From positions 1 through 47,423 of the forward strand of contig CANFUO010000007.1 in the NCBI GenBank assembly GCA_947450225.1: a stretch of DNA of 47,423 nucleotides, read 5' to 3'. Positions 1,936 to 21,467 of this stretch are shown here, in pieces (position 1 is the stretch's first letter; every line of letters starts with the position of its first letter). This DNA is from Burkholderiaceae bacterium. Lineage in GTDB: Bacteria > Pseudomonadota > Gammaproteobacteria > Burkholderiales > Burkholderiaceae. The notes under the pieces are model-generated. The model worked only from the letters and a program-made list of their open reading frames with translations, did no database searches and was not told where the DNA came from. A program made the position numbers and the translations under genes.

Positions 1936-2925
1936 TTAATCCACTTTGCCAATTTTTAACATGGTGGCTTTAATACGTTCGGCATCTTTATTCAGGAAAT
2001 CAGCAAAAGCAGCGCCATCGCGATAATCACTGGTTGCGCCAAGCTTTGTCATACTTTGAATAAAGCCGTTATCTTGAGTAACTGCCTTTTGAATATCGCT
2101 ACGAATCGACTGAACAATTTGATCCGGGGTTTTGATTGGGGCAAACAAACCGATCCATAAATAAAACTCAGCATCTTTATATCCAAGTTCAATTGCAGTT
2201 GGTACCTCAGGAAGTGAAGCCAATCGTTTATTGCCAGTAACAACAAGGGCTCTGAGCGCACCGGATTTAATTTGATTGACAACAGCACTAGGAGCGCTAG
2301 CCGTGGTTGCAATATGCCCGCCTAAAAGAGCCAAAATTGCGGGACCACCTCCAGCAAAAGGAATATGTCTTAATTTGACATTGGCGGCATTGGCTAACAT
2401 TTCAATTGGAATATGAGAAGCACTATAAGCCCCAGACGATCCATACGTGATTTCTCCCGGCTTGGCTTTTGCATCCGCAATTAAATCTTTATAGGTTTTC
2501 CAAGGCGCGTCAGCTTTTACGACTAACACAATAGGATCAGCCACTAAAAGGGCTAAAGGGGCAAAGTTATTGATATCAAATGTAGTTGGTCGACCAAACA
2601 TACGATCTGCTTCAGGAACAATAATCATTGATGGGTTGGTTGCGAGTAGGGTATAGCCATCAGGGCTAGAGTTAGCAACAAAAGCCGCACCAATTGCACC
2701 ACCAGCGCCAGGTTTAGTCAAGACCACAGCAGGCTGTTGCCAGACATTAAATAAGGCTTGAGAAATCAATCGTGACGGTTGATCAGCTGCGCCCCCAGGT
2801 GGGAAAGGGACAACGAGATTAACAGGTTTATTGGGGAAGTTGTTTTGTGAGAAAACAAGACTGCTAAATACAAAGAAAAATAAGAATAAAAGTTTTTTTA
2901 GATAAGGGTTAACATCATGAAGCAT
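1936..2925 (-). CDS. Bug-family tripartite tricarboxylate receptor (TctC-like), copy 1
   Basis: A 329-residue periplasmic solute-binding protein of the Bug (TctC) family. A signal peptide (hydrophobic core LLFLFFFVFSSLVFS) is followed by the family opening FPNKPVNLVVPFPPGGAAD and by KPGAGGAIGA and SPDGYTLL. Bug proteins bind small carboxylates or related polar organic molecules. No TctA/TctB membrane partner is in the window, which is common for this expanded family in Burkholderiales. The ATG has a good CAGGAGA site 8 bases upstream. The gene diverges from the Ldh-type dehydrogenase at 3017 and may share a control region with it (2926-3016). Confidence 0.93.
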   Translation of the reverse strand: MLHDVNPYLKKLLFLFFFVFSSLVFSQNNFPNKPVNLVVPFPPGGAADQPSRLISQALFNVWQQPAVVLTKPGAGGAIGAAFVANSSPDGYTLLATNPSMIIVPEADRMFGRPTTFDINNFAPLALLVADPIVLVVKADAPWKTYKDLIADAKAKPGEITYGSSGAYSASHIPIEMLANAANVKLRHIPFAGGGPAILALLGGHIATTASAPSAVVNQIKSGALRALVVTGNKRLASLPEVPTAIELGYKDAEFYLWIGLFAPIKTPDQIVQSIRSDIQKAVTQDNGFIQSMTKLGATSDYRDGAAFADFLNKDAERIKATMLKIGKVD

Positions 2926-3016: not shown

Positions 3017-4054
3017 ATGATTCAATTTACCCCTTCACATTTAAACCGTGTAGTTCAAACTATCTTTTGTGCAGCTGGTGCAAAAGAGCAAGATGCAATC
3101 CAAATAGCTGATATTTTGGTGGCCAACCATCTGGCTGGCCATGACTCGCATGGTATTTTAAGAATTCCCGAATATTTACAAAGTATCAAAGATGGCGAAA
3201 TTGACCCATCGGCAGATCCTGAGATCCTTCAAGAAACCCCAACGAGTGCGGTTGTGAAAGGTAATTGGTCATTTGGACAGGTCGCGGGTAATTTTGCCAC
3301 CGATTTAGCGATACAAAAAGCATTAGAGATGGGCGTCTGCGCGGTGTCTATTGTGCAAGCTGCGCATACAGGCCGCCTGGCCGTATTTACCGAAAGAGCA
3401 GCCGCAAAGGGTGTTGTGATGTTTATGACAATTGGCACGGTTGATCGACCAATGACTGCTCCCTATGGCGGTGCAGCTCCCTTACTTGGCACGAATCCAA
3501 TTGCGATTACATTACCTAATCAACACGGCCCTCACGTCACATTAGATTTTGCAACTTCGGCGATTGCCGCAGGTAAGATCAAGGTAGCCAAAGCCAAACA
3601 TGAAGCCTTGCCACCGAATTGTTTGTTAGATAAAAACGGCGACCCTACGACTGATCCTAATGATTTTTTTGATGGCGGATTTATGATGCCCTTTGGGGGG
3701 CATAAAGGATATGCCTTAGCTGTAATTGCTGAATTAATGAGTGGTCCATTAGTGGGGTCAGAATATTTTCCCGCGGTGACACAACGAAGTGGGGTGTTTA
3801 TATTTGCACTCAAAGCATCTTTATTCCAACCGATGGAAAAGTATGATGAGGCATTACAAAAGTCCTTACAGAAAATCAAAGCAATCCCACCAGCGAAGGG
3901 GTTTACTGAGGTGTTATTGCCAGGAGAGCCAGAATCAAAAATGAATACCAGGCGTCTTCAAGAGGGAATTCCGATACCCAAAGATACATGGCAAGCGGTC
4001 AGAAATGCTGGATTAACGGTGGGCGTAGATATAGATACAATAAAAGCAGTTTGA
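3017..4054 (+). CDS. Ldh family NAD(P)-dependent oxidoreductase (malate/L-sulfolactate dehydrogenase type), copy 1
   Basis: A 345-residue member of the LDH2/MDH2 family, which oxidises 2-hydroxy acids or reduces 2-oxo acids and cyclic imines with NAD(P)H. It has the family signature HDSHGILR (42-49, H45 the likely catalytic histidine), the nucleotide-binding region around GTNPIAITLP and the late GGHKGYALA motif. It is the first gene of a six-gene operon that includes a BadI-like hydrolase, a Bug receptor, an MDR dehydrogenase and an amidohydrolase, so a hydroxy-acid intermediate is a reasonable guess. A second member of the family lies at 8950-9990. The substrate is unresolved. Confidence 0.9.
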   Translation: MIQFTPSHLNRVVQTIFCAAGAKEQDAIQIADILVANHLAGHDSHGILRIPEYLQSIKDGEIDPSADPEILQETPTSAVVKGNWSFGQVAGNFATDLAIQKALEMGVCAVSIVQAAHTGRLAVFTERAAAKGVVMFMTIGTVDRPMTAPYGGAAPLLGTNPIAITLPNQHGPHVTLDFATSAIAAGKIKVAKAKHEALPPNCLLDKNGDPTTDPNDFFDGGFMMPFGGHKGYALAVIAELMSGPLVGSEYFPAVTQRSGVFIFALKASLFQPMEKYDEALQKSLQKIKAIPPAKGFTEVLLPGEPESKMNTRRLQEGIPIPKDTWQAVRNAGLTVGVDIDTIKAV

Positions 4055-4124
4055 AGGAATCATTTAAGGGTATTTATTTTTTGTTATAGTCATACCATTA
4101 CAACTATATTGAGAAAGAAGAGAC

Positions 4125-4502
4125 ATGACACATCCTGTATTGCAATACGAAGAAAAACGCCGCCTAGCAATGGACACAACTGATTTAGATGCTCTTAGAC
4201 AGATATGTGACCCTGCAATGATTTATCGCCATAGCACTGGTGCAGTTGATGATTTAACTCAATACATTGGTAAATTGGAAACAAAACAAGTTAAATACTC
4301 GAATGTCGTATTTAAAGACATGACAGTGATTCTTCCTCATCAAGGTGATGCGAAGGTAGTACTGGTTATGGGGCATATGTTTGCTGATGTCACTAAGCCT
4401 ACAGAAAATATCAAGATCAGTAGTCACTTTCAGACAACTTGGACACAAGTTGGCAATGACTGGAAACTACTAGCTGTGCATAGCGCATCGATAGGTCATT
4501 AA
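4125..4502 (+). CDS. NTF2-like / SnoaL-type small protein
   Basis: A 125-residue protein with the cone-shaped alpha+beta fold pattern of the NTF2-like superfamily: an N-terminal helix with a DLDALRQICDPAMIYRHSTG turn, then strands ending WTQVGNDWKLLAVHSASIG. The superfamily includes isomerases, dehydratases and ligand-binding proteins. It sits 70 bases after the Ldh-type gene and 34 before the BadI-like gene, so a role in the same pathway is likely but undefined. AGAAGAG just before the ATG is a fair ribosome binding site. Confidence 0.8.
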   Translation: MTHPVLQYEEKRRLAMDTTDLDALRQICDPAMIYRHSTGAVDDLTQYIGKLETKQVKYSNVVFKDMTVILPHQGDAKVVLVMGHMFADVTKPTENIKISSHFQTTWTQVGNDWKLLAVHSASIGH

Positions 4503-4536
4503 TCAGCTTTAAATTCTGCAGCTAGGGGAGTTTGGC

Positions 4537-5313
4537 TTGCGTTCTTTCGAAGATATTTTATATACAGAACATGGTGGCGTTGCCACCATTGCGATTAATC
4601 GTCCTGAAAAATACAATGCCTTTCGCGGGCAAACGTGTGATGAAATCATTCAAGCACTCCACCTTGCGGGTTGGAATAAAGATATTGGCGTCATTATTTT
4701 GACTGGCGTTGGAGAAAAAGCATTTTGTTCTGGCGGCGATCAATCGGCTCAAGAAGGTGGCTATGACGGTCGAGGCATCATTGGTTTGCCACTTGAGGAG
4801 CTTCATAGCTTAATCAGAGAAGTACCCAAACCAGTCATTGCTAGAGTCAATGGCTATGCCATCGGTGGCGGCAACGTGTTGGTGACCTGTTGTGACCTAG
4901 CGATTGCGTCTGAAAATGCCATCTTTGGACAAGTAGGGCCCAGGGTTGGATCGGTCGATCCAGGTTTTGGTACTGCCTACTTAAGTCGTGTTATTGGCGA
5001 AAAGCGTGCCAGAGAAATTTGGTATTTGTGCCGTAAATATACTGCGCAACAAGCCTTAGAATGGGGGCTAGTTAATGCGGTAGTCCCTATGGATCAGCTA
5101 GACCAAGAAGTTGAGAAGTGGGCTCAGGAAATCATGGCATTAAGCCCAACCGCCATTAGTATTGCTAAACGATCATTTAATGCGGATTCGGACTCCATTA
5201 AAGGTATTGGTTCTTTGGGGATGCAGACACTTAAACTCTTTTATGAGTCAGAAGAATCAAAAGAAGGGGTAAAAGCTTTTCTAGAAAAACGTAAACCACG
5301 TTTTAGAGACTGA
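4537..5313 (+). CDS. badI: BadI-like 2-ketocyclohexanecarboxyl-CoA hydrolase (crotonase superfamily)
   Basis: A 258-residue crotonase-fold protein. It resembles MenB and, more closely, the Rhodopseudomonas BadI enzyme that opens the ring of 2-ketocyclohexanecarboxyl-CoA to give pimelyl-CoA. Supporting stretches recalled from that family are NAFRG-TCDE, CSGGDQS (oxyanion region 64-70), YDGRG-GLP-EELH, GYAIGGGNVL (107-115), GQVGPRVGSVDPG (D141 in the MenB/BadI catalytic position) and the ending ESKEGVKAFLEKRKPRF. The start is TTG, chosen because AGGGGAG lies 6 bases upstream and the protein aligns from there. MenB is less likely since no menaquinone gene is nearby. The usual aliA/badH/badJ partners are absent here. 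Confidence 0.78.
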   Translation: MRSFEDILYTEHGGVATIAINRPEKYNAFRGQTCDEIIQALHLAGWNKDIGVIILTGVGEKAFCSGGDQSAQEGGYDGRGIIGLPLEELHSLIREVPKPVIARVNGYAIGGGNVLVTCCDLAIASENAIFGQVGPRVGSVDPGFGTAYLSRVIGEKRAREIWYLCRKYTAQQALEWGLVNAVVPMDQLDQEVEKWAQEIMALSPTAISIAKRSFNADSDSIKGIGSLGMQTLKLFYESEESKEGVKAFLEKRKPRFRD

Positions 5314-5356
5314 AGTGTAATTAACCCATCGATATATATTGATCCATAGGCACAAT

Positions 5357-6349
5357 ATGAAGAAAAACATCATGCAACTAAACAAACGCTTAATACTTTT
5401 GTTCTTCATTGCTTTTTTCTCAGCATCACAAGCGCAAACGTCTGAGGGTAATTATCCGATTAAGCCGATTCGCATTATTATTCCCCAAAGTTCAGGTTCC
5501 GCCACGGATACCTTAATTCGGCTGATCGCGCCTAAATTAACAGAGCAGTTAGGGCAAGCGCTCATTTTGGAAAATAAATTAGGGGCGGGCGGCATTATCG
5601 GCGCCGATACAGTTGCTAAAGCGGCTCCAGATGGATACACGCTTTTGATTGGCGCTACATCATGGATTACGATTGCACCGCATGTATATTCAAAATTAAG
5701 TTATGACCCACAAAAAGATTTAGCACCAATATCGATATTTGCTATAGGTCAAAATGTATTAGCCGTACCTGCGAACTCACCGGTGATGAATGTAAAAGAT
5801 TTAGTTGCGCAGATGAGGGCCAATCCCAATGGATTAAATATGGCCTCAGCGGGGATTGGATCTACGAGCCATCTTGCTGGAGAAATGTTGACCTCCCTTG
5901 CAAATGTGTCCGCAGTGCATGTGCCATACAAGGGGGCGGGACCATCCGTAATGTCCTTATTATCAGGAGAGGCACAATGGGTTTTTACCCCGATGCAAGG
6001 CCCCATTGCCTTGATTCGGTCAGGTAAATTAAGGGCGCTTGCTGTAGGAGGTGGTGTTCGCTCAGCCATCTTGCCAGATGTGCCTACAGTCAAGGAATCT
6101 GGAATTGCTGGCTATGATATGAGAAATTGGTATGGCTTATTAGCACCAACGGGAACTCCAAAACCAATTATCGATAAATTACACGCCGCGATTGTAAAAG
6201 TTGTTAATAGCCCTGAGATCAAAGAGCAGTTTTATACACAGGGATCAGAGCCCACTACCAACTCTCCGCAAGAGTTTAGTCAGTTTATTCGTGACGAGAC
6301 AGAGCGTATGTCTAAAGTGGTTAAAAAAGCGGGTATCAAGGTTGAGTAA
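5357..6349 (+). CDS. Bug-family receptor (TctC-like), copy 2
   Basis: A 330-residue periplasmic binding protein. The signal peptide has the core LILLFFIAFFSASQAQ, then YPIKPIRIIIPQSSGSATD, GAGGIIGADTVAKAAPDGYTLL and the late YKGAGPSVMSLLSGE typical of Bug proteins. I place the start at the ATG at 5357 rather than the TTG 18 bases upstream because it gives a normal signal peptide; the ribosome binding site is weak (AGG). It lies within the BadI operon, 43 bases after that gene and 13 before the MDR dehydrogenase, so it probably captures the pathway substrate. Confidence 0.92.
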   Translation: MKKNIMQLNKRLILLFFIAFFSASQAQTSEGNYPIKPIRIIIPQSSGSATDTLIRLIAPKLTEQLGQALILENKLGAGGIIGADTVAKAAPDGYTLLIGATSWITIAPHVYSKLSYDPQKDLAPISIFAIGQNVLAVPANSPVMNVKDLVAQMRANPNGLNMASAGIGSTSHLAGEMLTSLANVSAVHVPYKGAGPSVMSLLSGEAQWVFTPMQGPIALIRSGKLRALAVGGGVRSAILPDVPTVKESGIAGYDMRNWYGLLAPTGTPKPIIDKLHAAIVKVVNSPEIKEQFYTQGSEPTTNSPQEFSQFIRDETERMSKVVKKAGIKVE

Positions 6350-6362
6350 TGAAGGATAAATA

Positions 6363-7343
6363 ATGCAAGCACTCAGATTTAATCAAACGGGCGATTTAAA
6401 TTTTCTGCAACTAATCGATGTACCCTTACCAAGCATCAAAGAGGATGAAGTACTGATTGAAGTAAAAGCAGCAAGACTCAATCGGAATGATATTTCGAAT
6501 GTGATGGGCAGACTTCCCTATACAACGATTCCACGAACACCAGGACGTGATTATGCGGGCATTGTAAAAGCGGGACCTAAAAATCTGATTGGTAAAGAAG
6601 TTTGGGGTACAGGTAAAGAAAACGGCTTCATCCAAGACGGCAGTCATGCCGCGCATATCAAAGTCCATCAAAATGCTATTTCTTTGAAGCCACAATCCTT
6701 ATCCTTTATCGAAGCGGCCAATTGTGGGACACCCTACATCACAGCCTGGGGAGCGATAGAGTCGTGTCATGTCGGTGAAGGGACACGCATTGTTATCATA
6801 GGAGCCAATGGCGCCGTTGGAAATGCCGCGATTGAATTAGCAAAAAAAAGAAAAGCGCAGGTCTTAGGCTTGGTACGTCGTCAAGAAAACATCGCAGATA
6901 TTGAACATCAAGGTGTTAAGGCTAATCTTTTGCCGACCGATAACACTGATGAAAAAGCCCTCAAACAATTAATACAGCAGTATTTTTCCGATGGAGCTGA
7001 TGTTATTTTTGATACGACAGGGTATTGGTTACCTAATTCCATTTCGGCGATCGCAAAATTTGGTCAAGTCGCAGTTATTGTTGCCCCAGGCAATGGACAA
7101 GTGAGTATTTCAGTCAGAGATTTATACCGAAATGGTGGATCGATCAAAGGCGTTAACTCCTTGCTGCATTCAGCTAGCGAATGCGCCACAATTTTTAACG
7201 AATTAGCAAAGGATTTTGATCATCAATTGATGCGCCCACCAAAGAATATACAAACCCATGCATTAAAAGATGCGATTGAAATATATCGAGCAGTGCAAAA
7301 TGGCTTAACTGGTATGCATGTATTTATTCCACAGCACGCATGA
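6363..7343 (+). CDS. MDR-superfamily NADPH:quinone oxidoreductase-like dehydrogenase
   Basis: A 326-residue medium-chain dehydrogenase/reductase. The N-terminal GroES-like domain contains VKAARLNRNDI and PGRDYAGIV; the Rossmann domain has IIGANGAVGNAAIELAK. The cysteine ligands of zinc alcohol dehydrogenases are not evident, so it groups with zinc-independent quinone oxidoreductases and enoyl reductases. It is fifth in the BadI operon and its stop overlaps the next start (ATGA), so the two are translationally coupled. AAGGA precedes the ATG. Its substrate may be an unsaturated CoA or keto acid intermediate. Confidence 0.85.
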   Translation: MQALRFNQTGDLNFLQLIDVPLPSIKEDEVLIEVKAARLNRNDISNVMGRLPYTTIPRTPGRDYAGIVKAGPKNLIGKEVWGTGKENGFIQDGSHAAHIKVHQNAISLKPQSLSFIEAANCGTPYITAWGAIESCHVGEGTRIVIIGANGAVGNAAIELAKKRKAQVLGLVRRQENIADIEHQGVKANLLPTDNTDEKALKQLIQQYFSDGADVIFDTTGYWLPNSISAIAKFGQVAVIVAPGNGQVSISVRDLYRNGGSIKGVNSLLHSASECATIFNELAKDFDHQLMRPPKNIQTHALKDAIEIYRAVQNGLTGMHVFIPQHA

Positions 7344-8155
7344 ACATGAAAATTATTGATGCCCATATTCATATTTGGCAAAATGGTAAACCACGAGGAG
7401 CCCACCGCCAAGCGCCTTATTCAGCAGCAGAAGTTTTGTTGGATATGGACAGTGCAGGGGTTGATGCAGCAATTATTCAACCACCAGCCTGGGATCCGCA
7501 AGCTAATCAGATTGCTATAGCAGCAGCAAAACAATATCCCAAGCGTTTTGGTATTTTGGGTAATTTTGCATTGAATAGCCCACAGCCAGAAATCATACTT
7601 CGAGATTGGAAAGAACAGTCTGGGATGTTAGGACTACGTTATATCCTCAATGAGCCGATACACAGAGAATGGATGATGGGTGATGAATTACATTGGTTAT
7701 GGTCTGGAGCGCAGGAAAACGGTATACCCATTGCAATTGCTGCAAGCAGTCATTTAGAGATTTTTGCATCGATTGCCAAGCGTTATCCTGAACTTAAATT
7801 AATTATTGATCATTTGGGTGTTCCATTAGACGCAACTGGAGAGCAGGCATTCTTGCAAATGCCTGCTCTAGAACAGTTGGCTAAATTTTCAAACATCGCC
7901 ATTAAAGCAACAGCAGTGCCCGCATACGCTGACGACACCTATCCCTATCAAAGTATTGAAAAACATATCCAAAGAATTTATCAGTTATTTGGCGCAGAAC
8001 GATTTTTTTGGGGTAGCGATATCACGAAACTTAAATGCACATGGCGCCAATCGATTGATTTATTTATCAATGAATATCAATGGATCAGTGCTGAAGAAAA
8101 GTCTTTAGTGATGGGGAGTGGATTAACTCAGTGGTTATCTTGGGACATTGATTGA
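7340..8155 (+). CDS. Amidohydrolase 2 family metal-dependent hydrolase
   Basis: A 271-residue TIM-barrel hydrolase of the amidohydrolase-2 family. Metal-ligand motifs are DAHIHIW (H9, H11) near the N-terminus, LIIDHLGVP in the middle and FWGSDITK near the C-terminus (Asp as general base). Relatives include lactonases, 2-pyrone-4,6-dicarboxylate hydrolase and decarboxylases of aromatic acids. It is the last gene of the BadI operon and overlaps the upstream gene by 4 bases. Its 3' end overlaps the convergent MBL gene by 28 bases. It could open a lactone or decarboxylate a pathway intermediate. Confidence 0.85.
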   Translation: MNMKIIDAHIHIWQNGKPRGAHRQAPYSAAEVLLDMDSAGVDAAIIQPPAWDPQANQIAIAAAKQYPKRFGILGNFALNSPQPEIILRDWKEQSGMLGLRYILNEPIHREWMMGDELHWLWSGAQENGIPIAIAASSHLEIFASIAKRYPELKLIIDHLGVPLDATGEQAFLQMPALEQLAKFSNIAIKATAVPAYADDTYPYQSIEKHIQRIYQLFGAERFFWGSDITKLKCTWRQSIDLFINEYQWISAEEKSLVMGSGLTQWLSWDID

Positions 8156-8907
8156 GCAACATTGAGGTCGATAAGGCCTGATGATTCAATTTTTTCAGAG
8201 AACCACACCATCAGAGAATCAGCGCGCTTACCCAAATAAACGGGACAATCATTTTCATCAAGTTGCATTGATAGATCATGGCCCGGTATTAAAATATTTT
8301 TCGGCTTGGAGCGCCACTTCTCAAAAATGAGATCAATGGAGTCCGCACTTTCAGAGACATTAGCCGTATCAATAACCTTCTTTGACATCAGTTCCGCACG
8401 GTTCTTGGCAGCATCACCCGTAAAGATAACATCACTGGCACCATTATCTAAGACGAAGAGTAAATGACCAGGAGTATGTCCAGGGACAAGGAAGCAGTGC
8501 AGAAAAGGCAAGAACTCAGAAGGAGCTTGAATACGTCTGACATGGGCAGACTGATTGAGTTGTTGCACATACAGCTCCGGTAGAGGATTAAATCCAGGCG
8601 CTTGCTTGGCAGCCCAAGTCAGCTCAGTATCCCCAATCCAGATAGTCGCTTGTGGAAATAAAATATAGTTCACCATATGGTCATAATGCGCATGCGTCAA
8701 AATAACATCGGTAATATCTTTTGGCTCTAAGCCGAATTCATGTAAGCGTTTTTTTAAAGGACCGCGCATACCAAAAGCGCCGACATCTAGCAAAATAGTT
8801 CGACCTTGCCCACGAATCAAACTCACCGTACTCCAACCAAGTCCCCCATGACAAATAGATCTTCCCGGGAAGCCTTGAATCAGAACATCGACTTGATAAT
8901 TTGCCAT
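8128..8907 (-). CDS. MBL-fold metallo-hydrolase
   Basis: A 259-residue metallo-beta-lactamase-fold hydrolase. Visible metal motifs are THAHYDHM (HxHxDH), GHTPGH, FTGDAAKN and IPGHD, in the right order. The layout recalls lactonases of the AttM/AiiA type, but substrate cannot be assigned. No signal peptide is seen, so it is cytoplasmic. It lies 42 bases downstream of the second Ldh-type gene and probably forms an operon with it. A lactonase plus a 2-hydroxy-acid dehydrogenase would make a coherent pair for a lactone or hydroxy acid. Confidence 0.85.
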   Translation of the reverse strand: MANYQVDVLIQGFPGRSICHGGLGWSTVSLIRGQGRTILLDVGAFGMRGPLKKRLHEFGLEPKDITDVILTHAHYDHMVNYILFPQATIWIGDTELTWAAKQAPGFNPLPELYVQQLNQSAHVRRIQAPSEFLPFLHCFLVPGHTPGHLLFVLDNGASDVIFTGDAAKNRAELMSKKVIDTANVSESADSIDLIFEKWRSKPKNILIPGHDLSMQLDENDCPVYLGKRADSLMVWFSEKIESSGLIDLNVAQSMSQDNH

Positions 8908-8949
8908 ATTTTGTGCCGTTAAGAAAAAAAGGAGAGTGGATGAAAATAG

Positions 8950-9990
8950 TTAAGCGTCACCCAGCTGAGAGTGTTTTTTAAGTAATTGCAAAGTATCCTC
9001 ACTTAACTTAATACCTAAGCGACGCTGTTCCGCCATTTTTGTGAGTTCAATCATGCCTGGCACAATCACAGGATGCTCAGCATCTGCCGCGGGGCTATCC
9101 GTGAGGATCTGGGCAAAATCAGTCATACGCTGTGCAAGCCACTGCGTAGAGCCCAATTTTTTAGTATCGAGCAAAATAAAAAAGTGCCCGAGATTTTGTG
9201 GCTCAGCCGGGGCATCCTGCCAAGATTGAATATGCGTCAAGTAAGCGGCATTTGATAAAAGCCCGGCAAAAATATCCACCATTAATGCAAGACCATAACC
9301 CTTGTGTCCACCAACAGGTAATAAAAATCCATCTAAAGCAGCTTTTGGATCGGTAGTTGGGAAACCTTTGGCATCAGTCCCCCATGTATTTGGAATTTCC
9401 CGGCCTTGTTTAAAAGCATCCCTAATTTTTGCTCTTGCGACAACACTCATCGCCATATCCAGTAAAAAGGGATTACCACCTGGGTTAGGAACCCCAAAAC
9501 CTAGAGGACTATTGCCAAGGCGGGCATCAGTTCCACCCCAAGGTGCGATTGTCGTAGTGGCATTACTACCAATCATGCTAGCAAAACCCTGCTCAGCAGC
9601 GAGTAGGGCATAGGGCGATATAGGACCAAAATGATTACTGCCCCGTGTTAACGCAATCCCAATGCCACACTCAGCAGCAACTTCCATTGCCGCCTCCAAA
9701 GACCGCATGCCCACGAGAGGACCAACACCATTGTCACCGTTCACTTTCACCATCGCCGCAGCAACGCGTTCAACAGTGATTTTTGGATTTGGATTAATTC
9801 CGCCAATTTGCAGGCGTTCGCCGTAGGATTCGAGACGACTCATGCCGTGAGTAGAAAGCCCAAAAAGGTCAGCCATGACGAGGATTTTTACAACTTCAGT
9901 GGCATCCCCGCGCGGAAGACCTAAGCGGCAGAATGCCTCGATACCTAAATGGGTTAATTCTGCTTCACTAATACGCGGGGACTCAATCAT
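8950..9990 (-). CDS. Ldh family NAD(P)-dependent oxidoreductase, copy 2
   Basis: A 346-residue LDH2/MDH2-family enzyme, paralogous to the protein at 3017-4054. Signatures are LSTHGMSRL (45-53, H48 the likely catalytic residue), NHFGPISPYALLA, GNSPLGFGVPNP and GGHKGYGLALM. Compared with copy 1 it has the more usual GSNHFG segment. It is the first gene of a two-gene minus-strand unit with the MBL hydrolase and diverges from the molybdenum hydroxylase operon at 10152. The likely reaction is hydroxy acid/oxo acid interconversion; the exact substrate is unknown. Confidence 0.9.
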   Translation of the reverse strand: MIESPRISEAELTHLGIEAFCRLGLPRGDATEVVKILVMADLFGLSTHGMSRLESYGERLQIGGINPNPKITVERVAAAMVKVNGDNGVGPLVGMRSLEAAMEVAAECGIGIALTRGSNHFGPISPYALLAAEQGFASMIGSNATTTIAPWGGTDARLGNSPLGFGVPNPGGNPFLLDMAMSVVARAKIRDAFKQGREIPNTWGTDAKGFPTTDPKAALDGFLLPVGGHKGYGLALMVDIFAGLLSNAAYLTHIQSWQDAPAEPQNLGHFFILLDTKKLGSTQWLAQRMTDFAQILTDSPAADAEHPVIVPGMIELTKMAEQRRLGIKLSEDTLQLLKKHSQLGDA

Positions 9991-10034
9991 TATGACCTAT
10001 TAAAAAACGGTGTAATTCTCAATTTTGGCACATT

Positions 10035-10050
10035 TGGCGAGCAATATGCC
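10035..10050 (+). promoter_or_regulatory. Possible sigma-54-like promoter upstream of the molybdenum hydroxylase operon
   Basis: TGGCGAGCAATATGCC has the GG-N10-GC spacing and most invariant bases of a -24/-12 element (TGGC...G....TGC). It lies about 100 bases upstream of the FAD-subunit gene. No enhancer-binding activator gene is in the window and the element could equally be a chance match, so this is tentative. Confidence 0.25.
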
Positions 10051-10151
10051 GAGAAAATGCTTCGTATGCATAGTGAGTATTGGTTTTAATGGCATAAAAC
10101 ATAAAATATATAATATTGATTTATTATCGATAGAAACAGTAAAGAGACGAT

Positions 10152-10943
10152 ATGAACACTTTTCAATTCCATAGTACAAAAACCATCCAATTGGCAAAAG
10201 ATGCCTTTTCTGCCAATGAAAATGCAAAATTCTTATCAGGAGGCATGACCTTATTGCCTTCGATGAAGCACGGCTTAATTCAGCCGAATCATTTGATTGA
10301 CCTCAGTAAAATTCCAGAACTTCAAGTTTTAGAAGAAAGTAATGAGTTCTTGACGATTGGGGCGGCGACGAAGCACGATACCGTAGCAACCCATCCATTG
10401 GTGCAATCAGCGATTTCGGGCCTTGCTTATTTAGCGAGTCAAATTGGTGATCCTCAAGTACGCATGCGTGGCACCATTGGTGGTTCACTAGCGAACAATG
10501 ACCCTGCTGCCGACTATCCTGCCGCAGCCTTAGCTTTAAAAGCACACATTGTGACGGATCGCAGAGTGATTGCTGCCGATGAATTTTTTACCGGATTTTA
10601 TTCAACCGCTCTCGAAGAAGGCGAAGTCATTACGCAAATTAAATTGAGTAAGCCGATCAAAAGTGCGTATGTGAAGTTTAAGCAAGCGGCATCTGGATAT
10701 GCATTAGCGGGTGTATTTATTGCGCTGTATGCTAATCAAGAAGTTAGAGTTGCAGTCACAGGTGTAGCCTCGGGCGTATTTCGGTGGGAAGAAGCGGAGC
10801 GCGCTTTTTTAGGCTCAGAAATGAAGCCTGATTTGCAACGTGATGATGTCATCAGTGACCTACATGCCCCTAGTGCATACAGAATCAATATTGCTCAAGT
10901 CTTATTTAAAAAAGCAGCGCAACAAATAAAAAATAATTCATAA
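10152..10943 (+). CDS. Molybdenum hydroxylase, FAD-binding (medium) subunit, CoxM-like
   Basis: A 263-residue subunit of the xanthine oxidase/CO dehydrogenase family. FAD-binding motifs are AKFLSGGMTLLPSMK (about 26-40) and RMRGTIGGSLANNDPAADYPA (about 108-128). It carries electrons between the iron-sulfur subunit and the final acceptor. The gene leads a three-gene operon: 10 bases to the small subunit, and the small and large subunits overlap. Relatives include 4-hydroxybenzoyl-CoA reductase, nicotinate and quinoline oxidoreductases and true CO dehydrogenase. The weak site AAAGAGA precedes the ATG. Confidence 0.9.
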   Translation: MNTFQFHSTKTIQLAKDAFSANENAKFLSGGMTLLPSMKHGLIQPNHLIDLSKIPELQVLEESNEFLTIGAATKHDTVATHPLVQSAISGLAYLASQIGDPQVRMRGTIGGSLANNDPAADYPAAALALKAHIVTDRRVIAADEFFTGFYSTALEEGEVITQIKLSKPIKSAYVKFKQAASGYALAGVFIALYANQEVRVAVTGVASGVFRWEEAERAFLGSEMKPDLQRDDVISDLHAPSAYRINIAQVLFKKAAQQIKNNS

Positions 10944-10953
10944 AAGGTTATCT

Positions 10954-11418
10954 ATGCAACTCACAATTAATGGCCAAATAAAAGATTTGGCAGTCCAAGA
11001 CAATATGCTTTTAATTGAAGTCATTCGCGACCAATTACAACTTACAGGCACTCACAATGGTTGTGACACCACCCAATGTGGATGTTGCACTGTCTTGATG
11101 GATCAAGTGGCGGTCAAGTCTTGCACCATACTCGCAAGACAAGCCGAAGGAAGCAGTATTCAGACCATTGAAGGATTGGCTGGTAGCCAGCTCCATCCCG
11201 TTCAAGAAGCGTTTTCTCAAGAACATGGCTTGCAGTGCGGGTATTGCACTCCGGGTATGATCATGAGTACTGTTTACTTATTACAGCGTTATCCAAATCC
11301 GACCGATGATCAAATTAAAGAAGGTTTAGCCGGCAATATTTGCCGTTGCACAGGATACGTCAACATCATTAAGGCAGTTCAATCTGCTGCCAAAAAAATC
11401 CAGGAGGCAAAAGTATGA
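10954..11418 (+). CDS. Molybdenum hydroxylase, [2Fe-2S] (small) subunit, CoxS-like
   Basis: A 154-residue subunit with two iron-sulfur clusters. The N-terminal plant-ferredoxin-like cluster is held by C37, C42, C45 and C57 (GCDTTQCGCC...KSC). The C-terminal helical domain carries CGYC and CRCTG. All eight ligands are present, so the subunit should be functional. An extra cysteine (C44) replaces the usual alanine next to the third ligand. The stop overlaps the start of the large subunit by 4 bases (ATGA), which favours equal synthesis. Confidence 0.93.
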   Translation: MQLTINGQIKDLAVQDNMLLIEVIRDQLQLTGTHNGCDTTQCGCCTVLMDQVAVKSCTILARQAEGSSIQTIEGLAGSQLHPVQEAFSQEHGLQCGYCTPGMIMSTVYLLQRYPNPTDDQIKEGLAGNICRCTGYVNIIKAVQSAAKKIQEAKV

Positions 11419-13703
11419 ACGCACCCGAAGCGCTACTGCGTAAAGAAGACTTACGTTTAATTACAGGCCAAGGTAAATTTACATCAGACTGGTATTACGA
11501 CGGTATGTGTCATGCCTATATGATTCGCTCACCTTATGCCCATGGAGTAATTAAGTCCATAAGTTATGAAGATGTTTTAAAAGCGCCAGGTGTTGTACGG
11601 GTGATCACAGCGCAGGATGTTGCGCAAGCTGGTATGAAGTCCCTTCCCACGGGTGTCACGATTCAAAATCCGGACGGACAAAATCAAACTTTGGCACCAA
11701 TGCCAGTTCTTGCAACAGGTAAAGTGCGCTTTGTAGGACAGCCGATTGCGATGGTCATTGCCGATACCTATGAACATGCAAAACAAGCCGCAGAACTCGT
11801 CCAGATGGATGTTGACATGCTCGATGCCGTTACGGATTATGATTCAGCCCTCGCATCTCAAGCCCCGCAATTACATGAACAAGCAACAGGTAATTTATCG
11901 ATTCACTTCACCAAAGGGGATCAAGTTGCTACCGAAAAAGCCTTTGAACAGGCAACTTTTGTAAGCTCGATGTGTGTGAAGAGTCAACGTTTAATCGGCT
12001 CCCCAATGGAGTTGCGATCAGTCGTTGGTAAATATGATCCACAAACAGATCGCTATATTATCCATACCCCAAATCAGGGGATGCTTGGTATGCTTGGGGC
12101 GCTTGAGCATATTACAGGGATTCCAAAAGCACAGATTGATGTGCAGACACAAGATGTGGGTGGATCCTTTGGTATTCGTGGTGGAGCTTTTAGTGAAAAT
12201 GCCCTGGTATTGCTAGCGAGTAAGCTCATTGGAAAGCCAGTAAAGTGGGTAGCGACTCGCTCAGAAGTATTTTTATCAGATTGGCATGGTAGAGGACTTG
12301 AGTTAAACGGTTTTATTGCACTTGATCAATCTGGAAAAATTTTAGGGCTTCGTTTTGAGAATAAAGCTGACCTTGGTGCCTATACCTGTTATTTTGGATC
12401 ATTCATTGGTGCGCGCAATATTGTTATTACGATGAATGGCGTGTATGACATACCTGCTTTATCGATGTCATCAGAACTCTACTTCACCAATACCGTGCCA
12501 GTCTCTGCTTATCGTGGAGCTGGAAGGCCTGATATCGCTTATGCCATTGAACGACTGATTGATCATGCGGCGTATGAGCATGGTTTTGATCCAATTGAAT
12601 TACGCCGTAAGAATTTTATTAAGCCTAGTCAATTCCCATACGACAATCAGATTGGTTCGGTATACGATAGCGGAGAATTTGACACATTATTGGATCGTGC
12701 TTTAGAGGTCAGCGACTATAAAAACTTCGAGGGGCGTCGTCAACAAGCGCTCCAAAATAATCGCTTGCGAGGCATTGGCTTAGCCTATTTTATAGAGGCA
12801 TCTGGAGCAGGAACAGCACCTAAAGACCAAGTGATTGGTCAATTTACAGCTCAAGGAGTTTTGCAAATATTTGGGGTGACAGGAGCATCTGGTCAAGGAC
12901 ATGAAACATCGTTTTCACAAATTGTGCACGAAAAAATTGGCCTACAAAGTGATCAAATTGAATATTTTGCAGGACAAGCTGACAAAATGATGGTCGGTAG
13001 TGGCACTGGAGGATCTAGGACCTTGTATGGAGCCGGAAGTGCAGTTTTTAATCTGTGCGAGCAAATCCAAGAAAAAAGTAAATCACTAGCCGCGCAACTC
13101 ATGGGTGTATCGCAGGAGCAGTTGCAATTTAACCAAGGTAGTTGGCATGCGGGCAATCAATCCCTCTCGATTTTGCAAATTGTGCAAAAAACATTTGTGC
13201 CAGGACAACCGCACCCATTAGATGCAACTGGCGAAGCCTCTTCAGGTGCGACATACCCGAATGGGTGCCATATTGCGGAGGTAGAGATAGATCCAGAGAC
13301 AGGCGTTACCGAAATTATTCAATATGTAGCGGTGGATGATGTGGGAGTTGCAATCTCCCCGGCGCTTGTACAAGGACAAATTCATGGAGGAATTGTTCAG
13401 GGTATTGGACAGGTATTTTATGAACAAGCCATTTATGATGAAACAGGACAATTACTTACTGGATCATTTATGGACTATGCAATGCCTAAAGCAGGTTGCT
13501 TACCTCTTATTAAAACTGAAAAAATAGAAGTAATCACCAAAAATAACATCCTTGGATCTAAAGGTGTTGGTGAATCCGGTTGCTCAGGATCCTTGCCGAC
13601 CTTATCCAATGCTGTGATCAATGCGCTTCGACCCAGAGGTATTACTGAATTAGATATGCCCTTTACACCTGCCAAAGTATGGCAGGCATTGCAGTCTAAT
13701 TAA
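11415..13703 (+). CDS. Molybdenum hydroxylase, molybdopterin-binding (large) subunit, CoxL-like form II
   Basis: A 762-residue catalytic subunit. Cofactor and active-site motifs include VGGSFGIRGG (GGSFG at 249-253), AYRGAGRPD, GSGTGGSR and GVGESG with the catalytic glutamate E720. The AYRCSFR active-site loop of true aerobic CO dehydrogenase is absent, so CO oxidation is unlikely. A hydroxylation of an aromatic or heterocyclic ring, aldehyde oxidation or aryl-CoA reduction is more probable. No CoxD/CoxF/XdhC-type maturation gene is adjacent. The gene end overlaps the convergent Bug gene by 4 bases; that Bug protein may bind the substrate. Confidence 0.92.
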   Translation: MNAPEALLRKEDLRLITGQGKFTSDWYYDGMCHAYMIRSPYAHGVIKSISYEDVLKAPGVVRVITAQDVAQAGMKSLPTGVTIQNPDGQNQTLAPMPVLATGKVRFVGQPIAMVIADTYEHAKQAAELVQMDVDMLDAVTDYDSALASQAPQLHEQATGNLSIHFTKGDQVATEKAFEQATFVSSMCVKSQRLIGSPMELRSVVGKYDPQTDRYIIHTPNQGMLGMLGALEHITGIPKAQIDVQTQDVGGSFGIRGGAFSENALVLLASKLIGKPVKWVATRSEVFLSDWHGRGLELNGFIALDQSGKILGLRFENKADLGAYTCYFGSFIGARNIVITMNGVYDIPALSMSSELYFTNTVPVSAYRGAGRPDIAYAIERLIDHAAYEHGFDPIELRRKNFIKPSQFPYDNQIGSVYDSGEFDTLLDRALEVSDYKNFEGRRQQALQNNRLRGIGLAYFIEASGAGTAPKDQVIGQFTAQGVLQIFGVTGASGQGHETSFSQIVHEKIGLQSDQIEYFAGQADKMMVGSGTGGSRTLYGAGSAVFNLCEQIQEKSKSLAAQLMGVSQEQLQFNQGSWHAGNQSLSILQIVQKTFVPGQPHPLDATGEASSGATYPNGCHIAEVEIDPETGVTEIIQYVAVDDVGVAISPALVQGQIHGGIVQGIGQVFYEQAIYDETGQLLTGSFMDYAMPKAGCLPLIKTEKIEVITKNNILGSKGVGESGCSGSLPTLSNAVINALRPRGITELDMPFTPAKVWQALQSN

Positions 13704-18508: not shown

Positions 18509-19720
18509 GTGAGTTGTTTAAGTGGTTTAAAAATTATCGAAATGGGGCAGTTGATTGCTGGGCCATTTGCAGGAAAAACTTTAGCTGACTTTGGGGCAGA
18601 GGTTATTAAAGTAGAAACCCCAGTTACAGGTGATGCATTACGCAAATGGCGTTTATTGAAAAATGGCACTTCTATTTGGTGGCAAGTCCAATCGAGAAAT
18701 AAAAAATCAATCTCATTAGATCTAAAGTCCCCTGAAGCGCAAGATATCATACGTGCCTTGGTAAAAGAGTGCGACGTCTTGATTGAAAACTTTCGACCAG
18801 GAACGCTAGAGGAGTGGGGCCTTGACCCTGAGGATTTATTAAAAATTAATCCACGATTAATCGTACTTCGGATCAGCGGTTATGGACAAACCGGACCTTA
18901 TCGGAATAGACCTGGATTTGGGGTGGTTGCAGAAGCGATGGGTGGTTTGAGACATTTAACTGCAGAGCCAGGTAGAGTTCCCGTCAGAGTTGGCGTTAGC
19001 ATTGGCGATACCCTGGCAGCCTTGCATGGGGTTATTGGGATATTACTCGCCTTACATGAACGACATCAAAGTGGTAAAGGGCAGATTATAGATGTAGCCC
19101 TTTATGAGGCGGTCTTTAATTGTATGGAAAGCTTATTGCCTGAGTACAGCGCTTTTGGAGAAGTGAGACAAGCCGCGGGTAGCGCTTTGCCGGGAATCGC
19201 ACCTTCCAATGCCTACTTATGTAAAGACGGGGGATATGTGTTGATTGCTGGAAATGGCGACAGCATTTTTAAACGGTTAATGACCGCGATTGGTCAAAAA
19301 GAGATGGCCAATAATTCGGACTATGGAGATAACACTGGCCGCGTTCAACATGTTGCCTATATTGATCAAGTTATTGGAAAATGGACATTATTGCATGGCG
19401 TTGATGAGGTTCTTCAGGTATTGGAAGAGGCAAAAGTTCCTGCTGGGAAAATATATACGGCAGCAGATATTGCCCATGACCCTCATTTTATTGCCCGACA
19501 AATGATATTAAATCAAGTGAGTTCGGATGGTGATCACGTACTTGTCCCTGGAATTGTGCCTAAATTATCTCGAACTCCAGGCAACATCCACCGAGCATCT
19601 CCAAATATTGGACAAGACAATGAGCAGGTATTAAAAGAAATAGGCCTATCTGAAGAACAAATATCAGCGATGTATGCACGGGGAATCATTTGGTCTGAGA
19701 AGAAATCGAATGAGCAATAA
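18509..19720 (+). CDS. Class III (CaiB/BaiF family) CoA-transferase
   Basis: A 403-residue family III CoA-transferase, which moves CoA between carboxylic acids through an aspartyl-CoA intermediate. D167 in GVSIGDTLAALHG is the predicted nucleophile. Other family signatures are LIAGPFAGKTLADFGAEVIKVE (two parts around residues 15-36), NKKSISLDLK and LRISGYGQTGPY. The start is GTG with AAAAAGGGG upstream. It begins a three-gene operon and could activate the acid captured by the divergent Bug protein. Confidence 0.93.
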   Translation: MSCLSGLKIIEMGQLIAGPFAGKTLADFGAEVIKVETPVTGDALRKWRLLKNGTSIWWQVQSRNKKSISLDLKSPEAQDIIRALVKECDVLIENFRPGTLEEWGLDPEDLLKINPRLIVLRISGYGQTGPYRNRPGFGVVAEAMGGLRHLTAEPGRVPVRVGVSIGDTLAALHGVIGILLALHERHQSGKGQIIDVALYEAVFNCMESLLPEYSAFGEVRQAAGSALPGIAPSNAYLCKDGGYVLIAGNGDSIFKRLMTAIGQKEMANNSDYGDNTGRVQHVAYIDQVIGKWTLLHGVDEVLQVLEEAKVPAGKIYTAADIAHDPHFIARQMILNQVSSDGDHVLVPGIVPKLSRTPGNIHRASPNIGQDNEQVLKEIGLSEEQISAMYARGIIWSEKKSNEQ

Positions 19721-21467
19721 AAAACGCTCCATCTGGATGCAGGTGTGTTTTTGTTTTTTATTTCCAGGAATATTAAGTGCCCAAACATCTTCCCCAATCC
19801 TTGAATTTTTACCAGAACAGGCAACGGGCATCAAAGAAAAAAAAGTTGTATTTGCTAAGGAGCAGATGGTCGCTGGTGCGAATCGATACATATCACAGGC
19901 CGGCGCTAGCATTTTAAATCAAGGCGGTAATGCTGTAGATGCCGCTATTGCAAGTGCGATCATGGTCACCTTAGTCGAGCCACAATCTGCCGGAATTGGG
20001 GGCGGTGGATTTATCTTATATTTTGATAAGAAACAACACATCTTAACTAGTTTTGATGGCAGAGAAACTGCGCCACAAGTAGTAACAGAAAACCTTTTCA
20101 TCGACCAAATGGGGCGACCGCTGTCTTATCCTGATGCGGTGAACAATGGCAGATCAGTCGGTGTGCCTGGGCTTCTCAAGGCTTTAGAGCTCATGCATCA
20201 AAAATATGGAAGGCTTCCTTGGCAAGAACTTTTTGCGCCGACCATTGAGCTAGCAGAGCGGGGTTTTGAGGTATCTTCCAGGTTATCCCAATTAGTACAA
20301 AAAGATCCTTTTCTGGCGTATTCAGAAAACGCTAAAACATATTTTTACAGCTCAAGTGGAACGTCAATACAAACAGGGCAGATATTAATCAACATCCCAT
20401 TAGCAAATGCATTAAAAAAAATTGCCAAATATGGGGCACATGTTTTTTATGAAGGTCAGATGGCCAAAGAAATAGTCTTAGCAGTAGGTCGACATCCGCG
20501 GCCTGGGGTCCTTAATGAAGATGACTTAAAAAAATACCGTGCTGTGGAGCGGGATGTCGTGTGTGGGCCTTATCGCACATTGAGGGTATGCGGTATGAGC
20601 CCGCCATCGTCTGGGGGGATTACTTTATTACAGATTTTAGGAATACTAGAGTCGTTTCCGATGACCACTTATTCCCCCACATCCTATCAAGGGATTCATT
20701 ATTTTTCAGAGGCTGGCAGACTTGCCTATGCAGATCGAGATATTTACATAGCCGATCCATCCTTTGGCAAAGTTCCTGTTAAAGAATTATTAGCACCCGG
20801 TTACTTAGCGCAAAGGGCAAAACTCATTCGTTCAGATATTAGTATGAAGCAAGCGACTGCTGGTGAATTTGTTACACAGCAATCAAAGCTTGGTATCGAT
20901 CAAAGCGCAGAATTTCCATCTACAAGTCATTTATCGATTGTGGATCGACAGGGGAATGCCGTATCGATGACATTAAGTGTTGCCGCAGCCTTTGGATCAA
21001 GAATCATGGTGAACGGATTTTTCTTGAATAATGAAATGACAGACTTTTCATTTGTACCCGAACAAAATGGCGTAAAAATCTTTAACCGCGTTGAGCCTGG
21101 AAAAAGACCACGAAGTGCCATGGCGCCAGTGATGATCTTTGATAGTAATGACCAATTAAAAATGGTTATTGGTTCTGCAGGTGGGCCCGCAATTATTAAC
21201 TATGTTGCCAAAACGATTATCGGGGTGATTGATGGGGGCCTCAATATTCAAGAAGCTATTGCATTGCCGAATATAGGTAGTCGCAATATAGAAACCGACC
21301 TTGAAATAAGCAGATTACCTTTAGGAACAATAAATCAACTAAAATTCATGGGACATCCTATTAAAGAATGGGAAATGAATAGTGGTACTCAGGGGATCTG
21401 GATAGATCACAGGGGTTTATGGGGAGGCGTTGATCCAAGACGCGAGGGTGTTGTTTTGGGTCAATAA
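19710..21467 (+). CDS. ggt: Gamma-glutamyltransferase (gamma-glutamyltranspeptidase)
   Basis: A 585-residue Ntn-hydrolase precursor exported by a signal peptide (VCFCFLFPGILSAQ). Signatures are GGNAVDAAIAS, GIGGGGFI, DGRETAP for gamma-glutamyl binding, and TSHLSIVDRQGNAVSMT, where T405 should be the autocleavage nucleophile. PRSAMAP and GSAGGPAI complete the active site. It hydrolyses glutathione and other gamma-glutamyl compounds in the periplasm. I use the ATG at 19710, which overlaps the CoA-transferase end by 11 bases and starts a normal signal peptide; a longer reading from 19674 puts extra charged residues in front. Confidence 0.92.
   Translation: MSNKKRSIWMQVCFCFLFPGILSAQTSSPILEFLPEQATGIKEKKVVFAKEQMVAGANRYISQAGASILNQGGNAVDAAIASAIMVTLVEPQSAGIGGGGFILYFDKKQHILTSFDGRETAPQVVTENLFIDQMGRPLSYPDAVNNGRSVGVPGLLKALELMHQKYGRLPWQELFAPTIELAERGFEVSSRLSQLVQKDPFLAYSENAKTYFYSSSGTSIQTGQILINIPLANALKKIAKYGAHVFYEGQMAKEIVLAVGRHPRPGVLNEDDLKKYRAVERDVVCGPYRTLRVCGMSPPSSGGITLLQILGILESFPMTTYSPTSYQGIHYFSEAGRLAYADRDIYIADPSFGKVPVKELLAPGYLAQRAKLIRSDISMKQATAGEFVTQQSKLGIDQSAEFPSTSHLSIVDRQGNAVSMTLSVAAAFGSRIMVNGFFLNNEMTDFSFVPEQNGVKIFNRVEPGKRPRSAMAPVMIFDSNDQLKMVIGSAGGPAIINYVAKTIIGVIDGGLNIQEAIALPNIGSRNIETDLEISRLPLGTINQLKFMGHPIKEWEMNSGTQGIWIDHRGLWGGVDPRREGVVLGQ

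Follow-up and report, generated by a model that had tools for sequence, protein, structure and literature searches.

The stretch analysed here, contig CANFUO010000007.1 (47,423 nucleotides, assembly GCA_947450225.1) of a Burkholderiaceae bacterium, will be referred to as the window. At 4537..5313 (+) it carries a crotonase gene with a TTG start, whose product resembles BadI, the 2-ketocyclohexanecarboxyl-coenzyme A (CoA) hydrolase of the bad-ali systems of R. palustris, Aromatoleum sp. CIB and many Burkholderiales and Gammaproteobacteria, and belongs to the same crotonase branch with the same catalytic residues. We consider it fairly probable that this BadI-branch hydrolase forms a two-gene core with the NTF2-like gene directly upstream, that the core is expressed from its own promoter, that the remaining genes of the set are accessory and that the route served is not bad-ali. 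The set comprises six open reading frames (ORFs) on the same strand (+): an Ldh_2-type NAD(P)-dependent dehydrogenase (LdhA, 3017..4054), the NTF2-like protein (4125..4502), the crotonase, a Bug/TctC periplasmic receptor (TctC1, 5339..6349), an MDR-family reductase (6363..7343) and an Amidohydro_2 metal-dependent hydrolase (AmH, 7340..8155). The spacings between them are 70, 34, 25 and 13 bp, followed by a 4-bp overlap.

Regarding the crotonase itself, among the best 25 of 73 NCBIfam families the badI model leads with 444 bits, followed by the menB models PRK07396 (345 bits), TIGR01929 (313 bits) and PRK08321 (230 bits), and the enoyl-CoA hydratase models give at most 160 bits. The Pfam match is to ECH_1, with 241 bits. 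In the case of MenB (1,4-dihydroxy-2-naphthoyl-CoA synthase), the menaquinone enzyme and a sister family, the Ser, Asp, Tyr and Trp positions are common with the window protein, whereas two MenB models stay 100-130 bits under badI and K89, R91 and Y97 of MenB are not kept. Since the MenB cut-offs (342.7 bits for TIGR01929, 380 bits for PRK07396) are not reached and the protein stands apart from MenB in the trees described below, a MenB identity was rejected; an ordinary enoyl-CoA hydratase was rejected because of the low hydratase scores, and a chance resemblance to BadI because the scores lie far above chance. In a PDB sequence search the top match was the MenB-type chain 2iex (321 bits), and none of the best 60 of the 213 rows names a BadI chain.

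At the residue level, an alignment with E. coli MenB showed that S139, D141, W162, Q132, G134, G67, G111, Y236 and K251 are kept in the crotonase. The roles of these positions are presumed from the E. coli enzyme, in which we take S161, D163 and Y258 (here S139, D141 and Y236) to be catalytic. Across 107 relatives, the S, D, W, Q and glycines are found in all 107, the Y in 106 and the K in 104. K89, R91, Y97 and T155 of MenB correspond to S70, Q72, G75 and V133, and these MenB residues are mostly different in other BadI-like proteins also. Substitutions specific to the window type, that is, fixed in the four proteins of this type (from the window genome and three genomes of the same genus) where at least 90% of 107 others have another common residue, were limited to four, all of them mild: S65 (T in the others), Q72 (H), R136 (K) and F235 (Y). 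Two of the four have the same letter as E. coli MenB. As the catalytic positions are kept and the substitutions are mild, BadI-type chemistry is favoured and a radical change of reaction is disfavoured, the ring substrate not being fixed by these residues.

To place the protein among its relatives, two trees were considered. In the first one (52 rows), the window protein falls among the BadI proteins, with E. coli MenB and two paralogues from its own genome remote; 31 of its 49 inner forks are open, and its bootstrap had not settled. The second tree has 48 rows and is rooted on the Azoarcus KH32C protein, with four near-duplicate or remote rows, the MenB rows and the rows of contigs C8 and C9 left out. 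Here, three window-type rows form a clade (support 100/96) within a 39-row group (90/81) that also has ten gammaproteobacterial bad-ali rows as a clade of their own (99/99). Five high-scoring bad-ali rows, four from Burkholderiaceae family genomes and one from Acinetobacter, form a further clade (100/99) outside this group. The type labels in this tree were assigned from gene order, and those of L082 and L074, at contig ends, are guesses. The Acinetobacter row L159 was grouped with the Burkholderiaceae-type bad-ali rows by score and then confirmed by its BadH (60%) and AliA (51%) neighbours. The bad-ali identity of the gammaproteobacterial rows was checked on L079, where aliB is over its cut-off and aliA and badH are below.

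In terms of identity, a family search gave crotonase matches at E<=1e-90 in 47 of 299 genomes; among the matches listed, 11 besides its own are at 71-80% identity and the rest at 66-70%, several genomes having one of each. In named genomes 174 relatives came up, of which the best 80 have 72-89% identity to the crotonase. The BadI proteins of bad-ali are 75-78% (gammaproteobacterial) and 66-70% (Burkholderiaceae forms) identical to it. The protein on the KH32C plasmid, of the MrcE kind, is only 62% identical, which puts the crotonase closer to bad-ali BadI than to that kind. Judged from its sequence, the crotonase is a real BadI-branch enzyme, which we call BadI-like. A preliminary description of this DNA had already called it closely BadI-like; the badI and menB scores (444 vs 313 bits), the kept catalytic positions and its place inside the BadI radiation, apart from MenB and the hydratases, agree with this. 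As a separate observation, a BadI-like gene on a Marinobacter salarius plasmid is annotated only as 'enoyl-CoA hydratase-related protein'.

Within the genus, crotonase carriers at E<=1e-90 were 4 of 186 genomes: the window genome (2.46 Mb in 173 contigs, 91% complete, the window being contig C7), G411 (one closed contig, 100% complete, BadI locus L156), G448 (loci L063/L157) and G460 (loci L064/L208). In G448 and G460 the full order is kept, with a divergent receptor gene (TctC0) followed in the other direction by LdhA, NTF2-like, BadI, TctC1, MDR and AmH, and the proteins are 76-89% identical to those of the window. In the case of G411 the order reads FAH-like, DUF2452, NTF2-like, BadI, LdhB, CoxMSL, TctC2, QOR, methyltransferase, TctC3, CaiB, FAH, histidine kinase and MotB. 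When 23 window proteins were compared with G411, 16 were matched in order and seven (TctC0, LdhA, TctC1, MDR, AmH, MBL and GGT) had no match in the fetched stretches. The whole G411 genome holds no MDR homologue at E<=1e-20; LdhA, TctC1 and AmH are not at the G411 locus, the rest of that genome not having been searched for them. The NTF2-like protein is 82-84% identical in the three other carriers, and its gene is the only one directly beside BadI in all four. Among 96 flanked BadI loci, only the four of the window type have it beside BadI. The ORF caller used for gene order misses some small genes; the NTF2-like gene, for example, was recovered by tblastn in L063 and L064.

Because G411 has the NTF2-like and BadI genes without the other four at the locus, we read these two genes as the core, and the Ldh, Bug receptor, MDR and amidohydrolase genes look accessory. 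The ratios of nonsynonymous to synonymous substitution rates (dN/dS) in the three pairs among L063, L064 and G411 were 0.030, 0.039 and 0.024 for BadI and 0.041, 0.045 and 0.060 for the NTF2-like protein. They rest on these pairs, as dS is saturated or nearly so between the window and its relatives. The BadI and NTF2-like pair is thus under strong purifying selection. Altogether, the enzyme is of the BadI branch, and its gene setting is unusual and conserved only in part.

The two-gene core is preceded by a conserved non-coding block (4070..4124, +). Its core, TTGTTATAGT..CATTACAAC, is kept in the four genomes, with one difference in L063 and variable middle bases, and it is kept despite a different upstream gene, which is LdhA in three genomes and DUF2452 in G411. 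As sequence evidence goes, the block is perhaps the own promoter of the NTF2-like and BadI genes, and together with the persistence of the two genes in G411 it leads us to read them as a core transcribed from a promoter of its own. A weak sigma-70-like match, TTGTTA-18-TATATT, lies at 4081-4110; such matches are not commoner than in shuffled sequence (11 found, 14.0 expected), and the scan for promoters and terminators as a whole gave sites no commoner than in shuffles. Regulation through a BadR-type operator, CAAN4TTG, was considered and rejected, as the window has 36 such sites where 27.6 are expected and 6 of 100 shuffles reach 36. The intergenic stretches of the operon hold none, and one at 4260 lies within the NTF2-like gene.

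The preliminary description had treated the six ORFs as one operon for one pathway. Spelled out, the six genes would serve the catabolism of an alicyclic or terpenoid acid, with the Bug receptor importing the acid, LdhA making the ring ketone, BadI opening the ring, and the MDR enzyme and the amidohydrolase processing the product. The tight same-strand spacing and the order kept in G448 and G460 speak for such an operon, as do two distant AmH relatives, one beside a 28% identical crotonase (L188) and one near a 31% identical Ldh_2 gene (L194). However, the set is complete in only 3 of the 186 genus genomes, G411 keeps just the NTF2-like and BadI genes at the locus and has no MDR gene anywhere by the search above, and the conserved block suggests a separate promoter within the set. 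The relatives of AmH were also weighed, being found at E<=1e-50 in 36 of 399 sampled genomes of the order (its own included) with at most 47% identity outside its own genome. Among 29 short loci around them, a TctC match occurs in 9, and the crotonase and Ldh_2 genes just mentioned in one each; in 16 wider loci from other Burkholderiales, a Bug receptor is nearby in 7, an MDR match in none and a 34% identical crotonase in one. We regard a single six-gene operon as unlikely. The families and coordinates given for the six ORFs agree with ours.

In the case of the usual partners, the picture is one of absence by score. The best scores in the window genome are 199 bits for badH (cut-off 431), 256 bits for aliA (792) and 188 bits for aliB (575), all less than half of the cut-offs, and in two real clusters the ranges are 369-470, 746-885 and 608-741 bits, respectively. 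Real BadH-like neighbours overall score 364-470 bits. Since gammaproteobacterial badH and aliA also fall under their cut-offs, the absence is argued from the size of the score gap. On these scores, aliA, badH and aliB appear to be absent from the window genome (91% complete), to which the aliA and aliB models were confined. For badH, the three sister genomes, including the closed G411, also have nothing over the cut-off (best at most 175 bits). The window locus holds no aliA, badH, aliB, badK or badR, with no search aimed at badK or badR. The preliminary description had left aliA and badH out of the set and had named their presence elsewhere in the genome as a point that would speak against it; neither was found by score in the window genome.

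These absences can be set against the contexts of other BadI relatives, to which the family search contributed 18 BadI places; gene order distinguishes at least five. The first is the canonical aliA-badH-badI-aliB-badR order, in Marinobacter, Pseudomonas and Halomonas (BadI at about 75-78% identity to the window protein) and in Burkholderiaceae (66-70%). In L054, of the Burkholderiaceae type, aliA (885 bits), aliB (741) and badH (470) are all over their cut-offs; in L079, from Marinobacter, aliB (608) is over, aliA (746, cut-off 792.3) and badH (369, cut-off 431.2) are below, and a MarR gene is present. The window locus differs from bad-ali in being without aliA, badH and aliB and in a badI score under the cut-off. 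Type 2, in Cupriavidus, Variovorax and others, has an OYE-type reductase, a CoA ligase, a BadH-like protein (364 bits in L080), BadI, a hydratase and an acyl-CoA dehydrogenase. Type 3, in Pigmentiphaga, Alcaligenaceae CGII-64 and Cupriavidus, has CaiB, acyl-CoA dehydrogenase, a MaoC-like protein (Pfam 28.5 bits), BadH (398 bits in L078, under the 431 cut-off), TctC, a 4HBT thioesterase and CaiB, divergent from BadI. Type 3 resembles the window in its Bug receptor and its 75-79% identical BadI; unlike the window, its loci include BadH, an acyl-CoA dehydrogenase and CoA transferases, and neither an NTF2-like nor an Ldh_2 gene was found within 6 kb. Type 4, in Trinickia (G114) and further family genomes, has acyl-CoA dehydrogenase, MaoC-like, CaiB, BadH and BadI as cluster members. 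Type 5, with CoA-transferase A/B near BadI, occurs in Caballeronia, Paraburkholderia and the Agrobacterium plasmid pTiCFBP4996 (L205), where a GntP permease and an NAD(P)-dependent oxidoreductase also stand beside the BadI-like and CoA-transferase genes. Like the window, the type-5 loci L051, L103 and L205 have a BadI-like gene without aliA or BadH above threshold, but with other partners, such as the GntP permease of L205, and they are placed within the type-2 branch of the tree.

Overall, a BadH-like gene (at least 45% identity) lies within 6 kb of BadI in 84 of the 96 flanked loci, which have flanks of 3.5 kb or more on each side, derive from 106 sequences and include some loci counted twice (e.g. 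L043/L066, L046/L080 and L048/L097). The 12 loci without one, the window type among them, are L140, L051, L063, L064, L067, L085, L098, L102, L103, L156, L205 and the window; of these, L098 and L102 do hold a BadH-cluster gene by gene-order clustering. A loss of linkage is thus unusual. This bears on another explanation, in which BadI would be the sole dedicated enzyme of an ordinary, dispersed beta-oxidation of the cyclohexanecarboxylate type, with ligase, acyl-CoA dehydrogenase, hydratase and 3-hydroxyacyl-CoA dehydrogenase supplied in trans. All needed enzyme classes are encoded in a nine-gene cluster on contig C8 of the window genome (L061, 4525-13589), namely CoA_transf_3, a MenB/BadI-like protein, CoA ligase, hydratase, SDR, acyl-CoA dehydrogenase, 3-hydroxyacyl-CoA dehydrogenase, a 3HCDH-domain protein and CoA_transf_3, and this cluster could supply the missing steps. 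A local badK is reported to be missing already from most Burkholderiales bad-ali clusters (PMC9795900). Against this stand the badH, aliA and aliB scores, far below those of the two real clusters, and the BadH-like gene kept in most loci, so that we hold a dispersed pathway to be improbable. The C8 cluster may also be a separate ring or dicarboxylate pathway; its MenB/BadI-like protein is 42% identical to the window crotonase, with the Ser and Asp kept and L at the position of the catalytic Tyr.

A further idea concerns the NTF2-like protein, which matches Pfam DUF4440 with 41.6 bits (threshold 25.2) and, at E<=1e-20, is found in 1 of 399 genomes of the order, its own. Its AlphaFold2 model, with a predicted local distance difference test (pLDDT) value of 88.5 (five models, 38.0-88.5), has the NTF2 fold, and the nearest PDB chain by fold comparison is the uncharacterised NTF2-like 3fsd (Z 19.8). 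A function does not emerge from this comparison, as CaMKII hubs, LinA, scytalone dehydratase and many proteins of no assigned role come at similar Z, and the PDB sequence search likewise gave 3fsd as top match (0.0085), with no substrate hint. The NTF2 fold is that of several isomerases, dehydratases and cyclases. One could imagine that the NTF2-like protein and BadI make up a minimal pair for ring opening. The former would then make or present the cyclic beta-keto form and dispense with a BadH-type dehydrogenase, on a route distinct from both bad-ali and mrc; we give this only a slim chance. That the BadI-derived enzyme was recruited to another reaction on a non-cyclohexane substrate (a five-membered ring, an open-chain beta-diketone-CoA or a MenB-like condensation) is very improbable, for the four window-type-specific residues, two with the MenB letter, and the quite different contexts of relatives such as the CoA-transferase loci are outweighed by the mildness of the substitutions, the very low dN/dS and the retention of all positions common to MenB and BadI.

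Returning to the two-gene core as the preferred reading, the BadI-like enzyme would hydrolyse a C-C bond in the ring of a cyclic beta-ketoacyl-CoA and so yield a dicarboxylyl-CoA, much as BadI turns 2-ketocyclohexanecarboxyl-CoA into pimeloyl-CoA, both the CoA dependence and the direction being those expected of its branch. The gene was probably acquired, presumably by transfer, by a few species of a small-genome genus, which is presumably Polynucleobacter, of fresh water. The functional core would be the NTF2-like and BadI genes as a unit under their own promoter, and the Ldh_2 dehydrogenase, Bug receptors, MDR reductase and amidohydrolase would be an accessory set in some species, possibly for uptake and for side-chain or lactone processing. 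Activation to the CoA ester and the step that makes the ring ketone would have to be supplied by other genes, e.g. CaiB at 18509, the Ldh_2 enzymes or the acyl-CoA cluster on C8. Alicyclic acids occur in humic matter and naphthenic acids.

Several observations weigh against this reading. The crotonase, at 443.8-444.0 bits, misses the curated badI cut-off (TIGR03210, 467.6 bits) by about 24 bits, which is why it is named BadI-like and not a BadI equivalog; proteins of full bad-ali context in the genomes of L079 (460.7 bits) and L121 (466.7 bits) fall under it too, so that this cut-off is strict. BadH, which makes the substrate of BadI in the known route, is by score not present in the window genome. 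The acyl-CoA dehydrogenase of a type-3 locus reaches only 181 bits with the aliB model, and since a non-orthologous enzyme can stand in, as in this case, a low score does not by itself prove that the step is missing. Moreover, the nearest rows to the window type by tree path include type-3 rows, and the exact sister group is not settled, with 20 of 45 inner forks open in the second tree. Finally, the solved structures among Ldh_2 relatives belong to malate/lactate, sulfolactate, ureidoglycolate and piperideine-2-carboxylate enzymes. Enzymes of these types carry out alpha-hydroxy acid or cyclic imine chemistry and do not act on beta-hydroxyacyl-CoA, so that LdhA would be a poor substitute for BadH; it is also missing from the G411 locus.

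The general idea of BadI-like enzymes outside bad-ali, including terpenoid ring cleavage without aliAB, is already in print, so that the corresponding idea of the preliminary description has precedent. In the respective reports, the BadI-like MrcE of the mrcDEF genes of Castellaniella defragrans is assigned to the ring cleavage of perillyl-CoA and the BadI of Azoarcus sp. KH32C is given as 88% identical to it (PMC4109377), an additional badKHI cluster without aliAB is suggested for monoterpenes (PMC9795900, citing Weiten et al.), and a BadI-like hydrolase in the lrc operon of Syntrophobacteraceae LiM6 is assigned to a terpenoid ring acid (PMC12583861). The mrc and lrc systems are like the window in using a BadI-like hydrolase outside bad-ali, and mrc is unlike it in that a BadH-like dehydrogenase and a hydratase adjoin the hydrolase (PMC4109377). 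The pairing with an NTF2-like protein together with the lack of BadH was not met in literature on badI, aliA/badH, terpenoid ring cleavage, ring-opening hydrolases and Polynucleobacter with cyclohexanecarboxylate, no search by NTF2 pairing having been made. For the last of these topics a single paper came up, on a soil metagenome. As a BadI-like enzyme is kept here where the dehydrogenase that usually accompanies it is lacking, a badI match alone is a poor marker of cyclohexanecarboxylate degradation in annotation. The NTF2-like and BadI genes also offer a two-gene target simple enough for an assay.

Regarding the accessory genes, LdhA matches Pfam Ldh_2 with 350 bits and occurs in three of the four carriers. 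TctC1 matches Pfam TctC with 270 bits, the MDR reductase matches ADH_zinc_N (47 bits) and ADH_N (33 bits) and is 77-78% identical in G448 and G460, and AmH matches Amidohydro_2 with 80 bits. For the amidohydrolase, the PDB search at E<=1e-3 gave no match and thus no substrate hint. Upstream, the divergent Bug/TctC receptor TctC0 (1936..2925, -) has homologues of 84-89% identity in the corresponding position of L063/L157 and L064/L208, is not at the G411 locus and travels with LdhA.

Some further observations concern the surroundings. The complete aliA-badH-badI-aliB cluster of Marinobacter has members that the curated cut-offs for badI, badH and aliA (TIGR03210, TIGR03206 and TIGR03208 were examined) exclude. 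In L051, L103, L128 and L205 a BadI-like gene stands with CoA-transferase A/B in a context without a bad-ali link, L205 and L128 also having a hydroxyacid-type dehydrogenase. The window has a G+C content of 41%, and flagellar genes fill much of 25.7-45 kb. At 8128-13703 it has an MBL-fold lactonase-like gene, a second Ldh_2 dehydrogenase (LdhB) and a set read, without a family scan, as a CoxM/CoxS/CoxL-type molybdenum hydroxylase; the Ldh_2-Cox block adjoins BadI in G411 as well. A gamma-glutamyltransferase gene at 19674-21467, between CaiB and fumarylacetoacetase, has no match at the same place in G411. In the stretch between the FAH-like and the flagellar genes (window 1-23200, L156 and L157), gene content varies among close relatives, with extra CaiB-like, TctC and other genes in G448 and seven of the window's genes missing from G411; this stretch is perhaps a hot spot of catabolic gain and loss.

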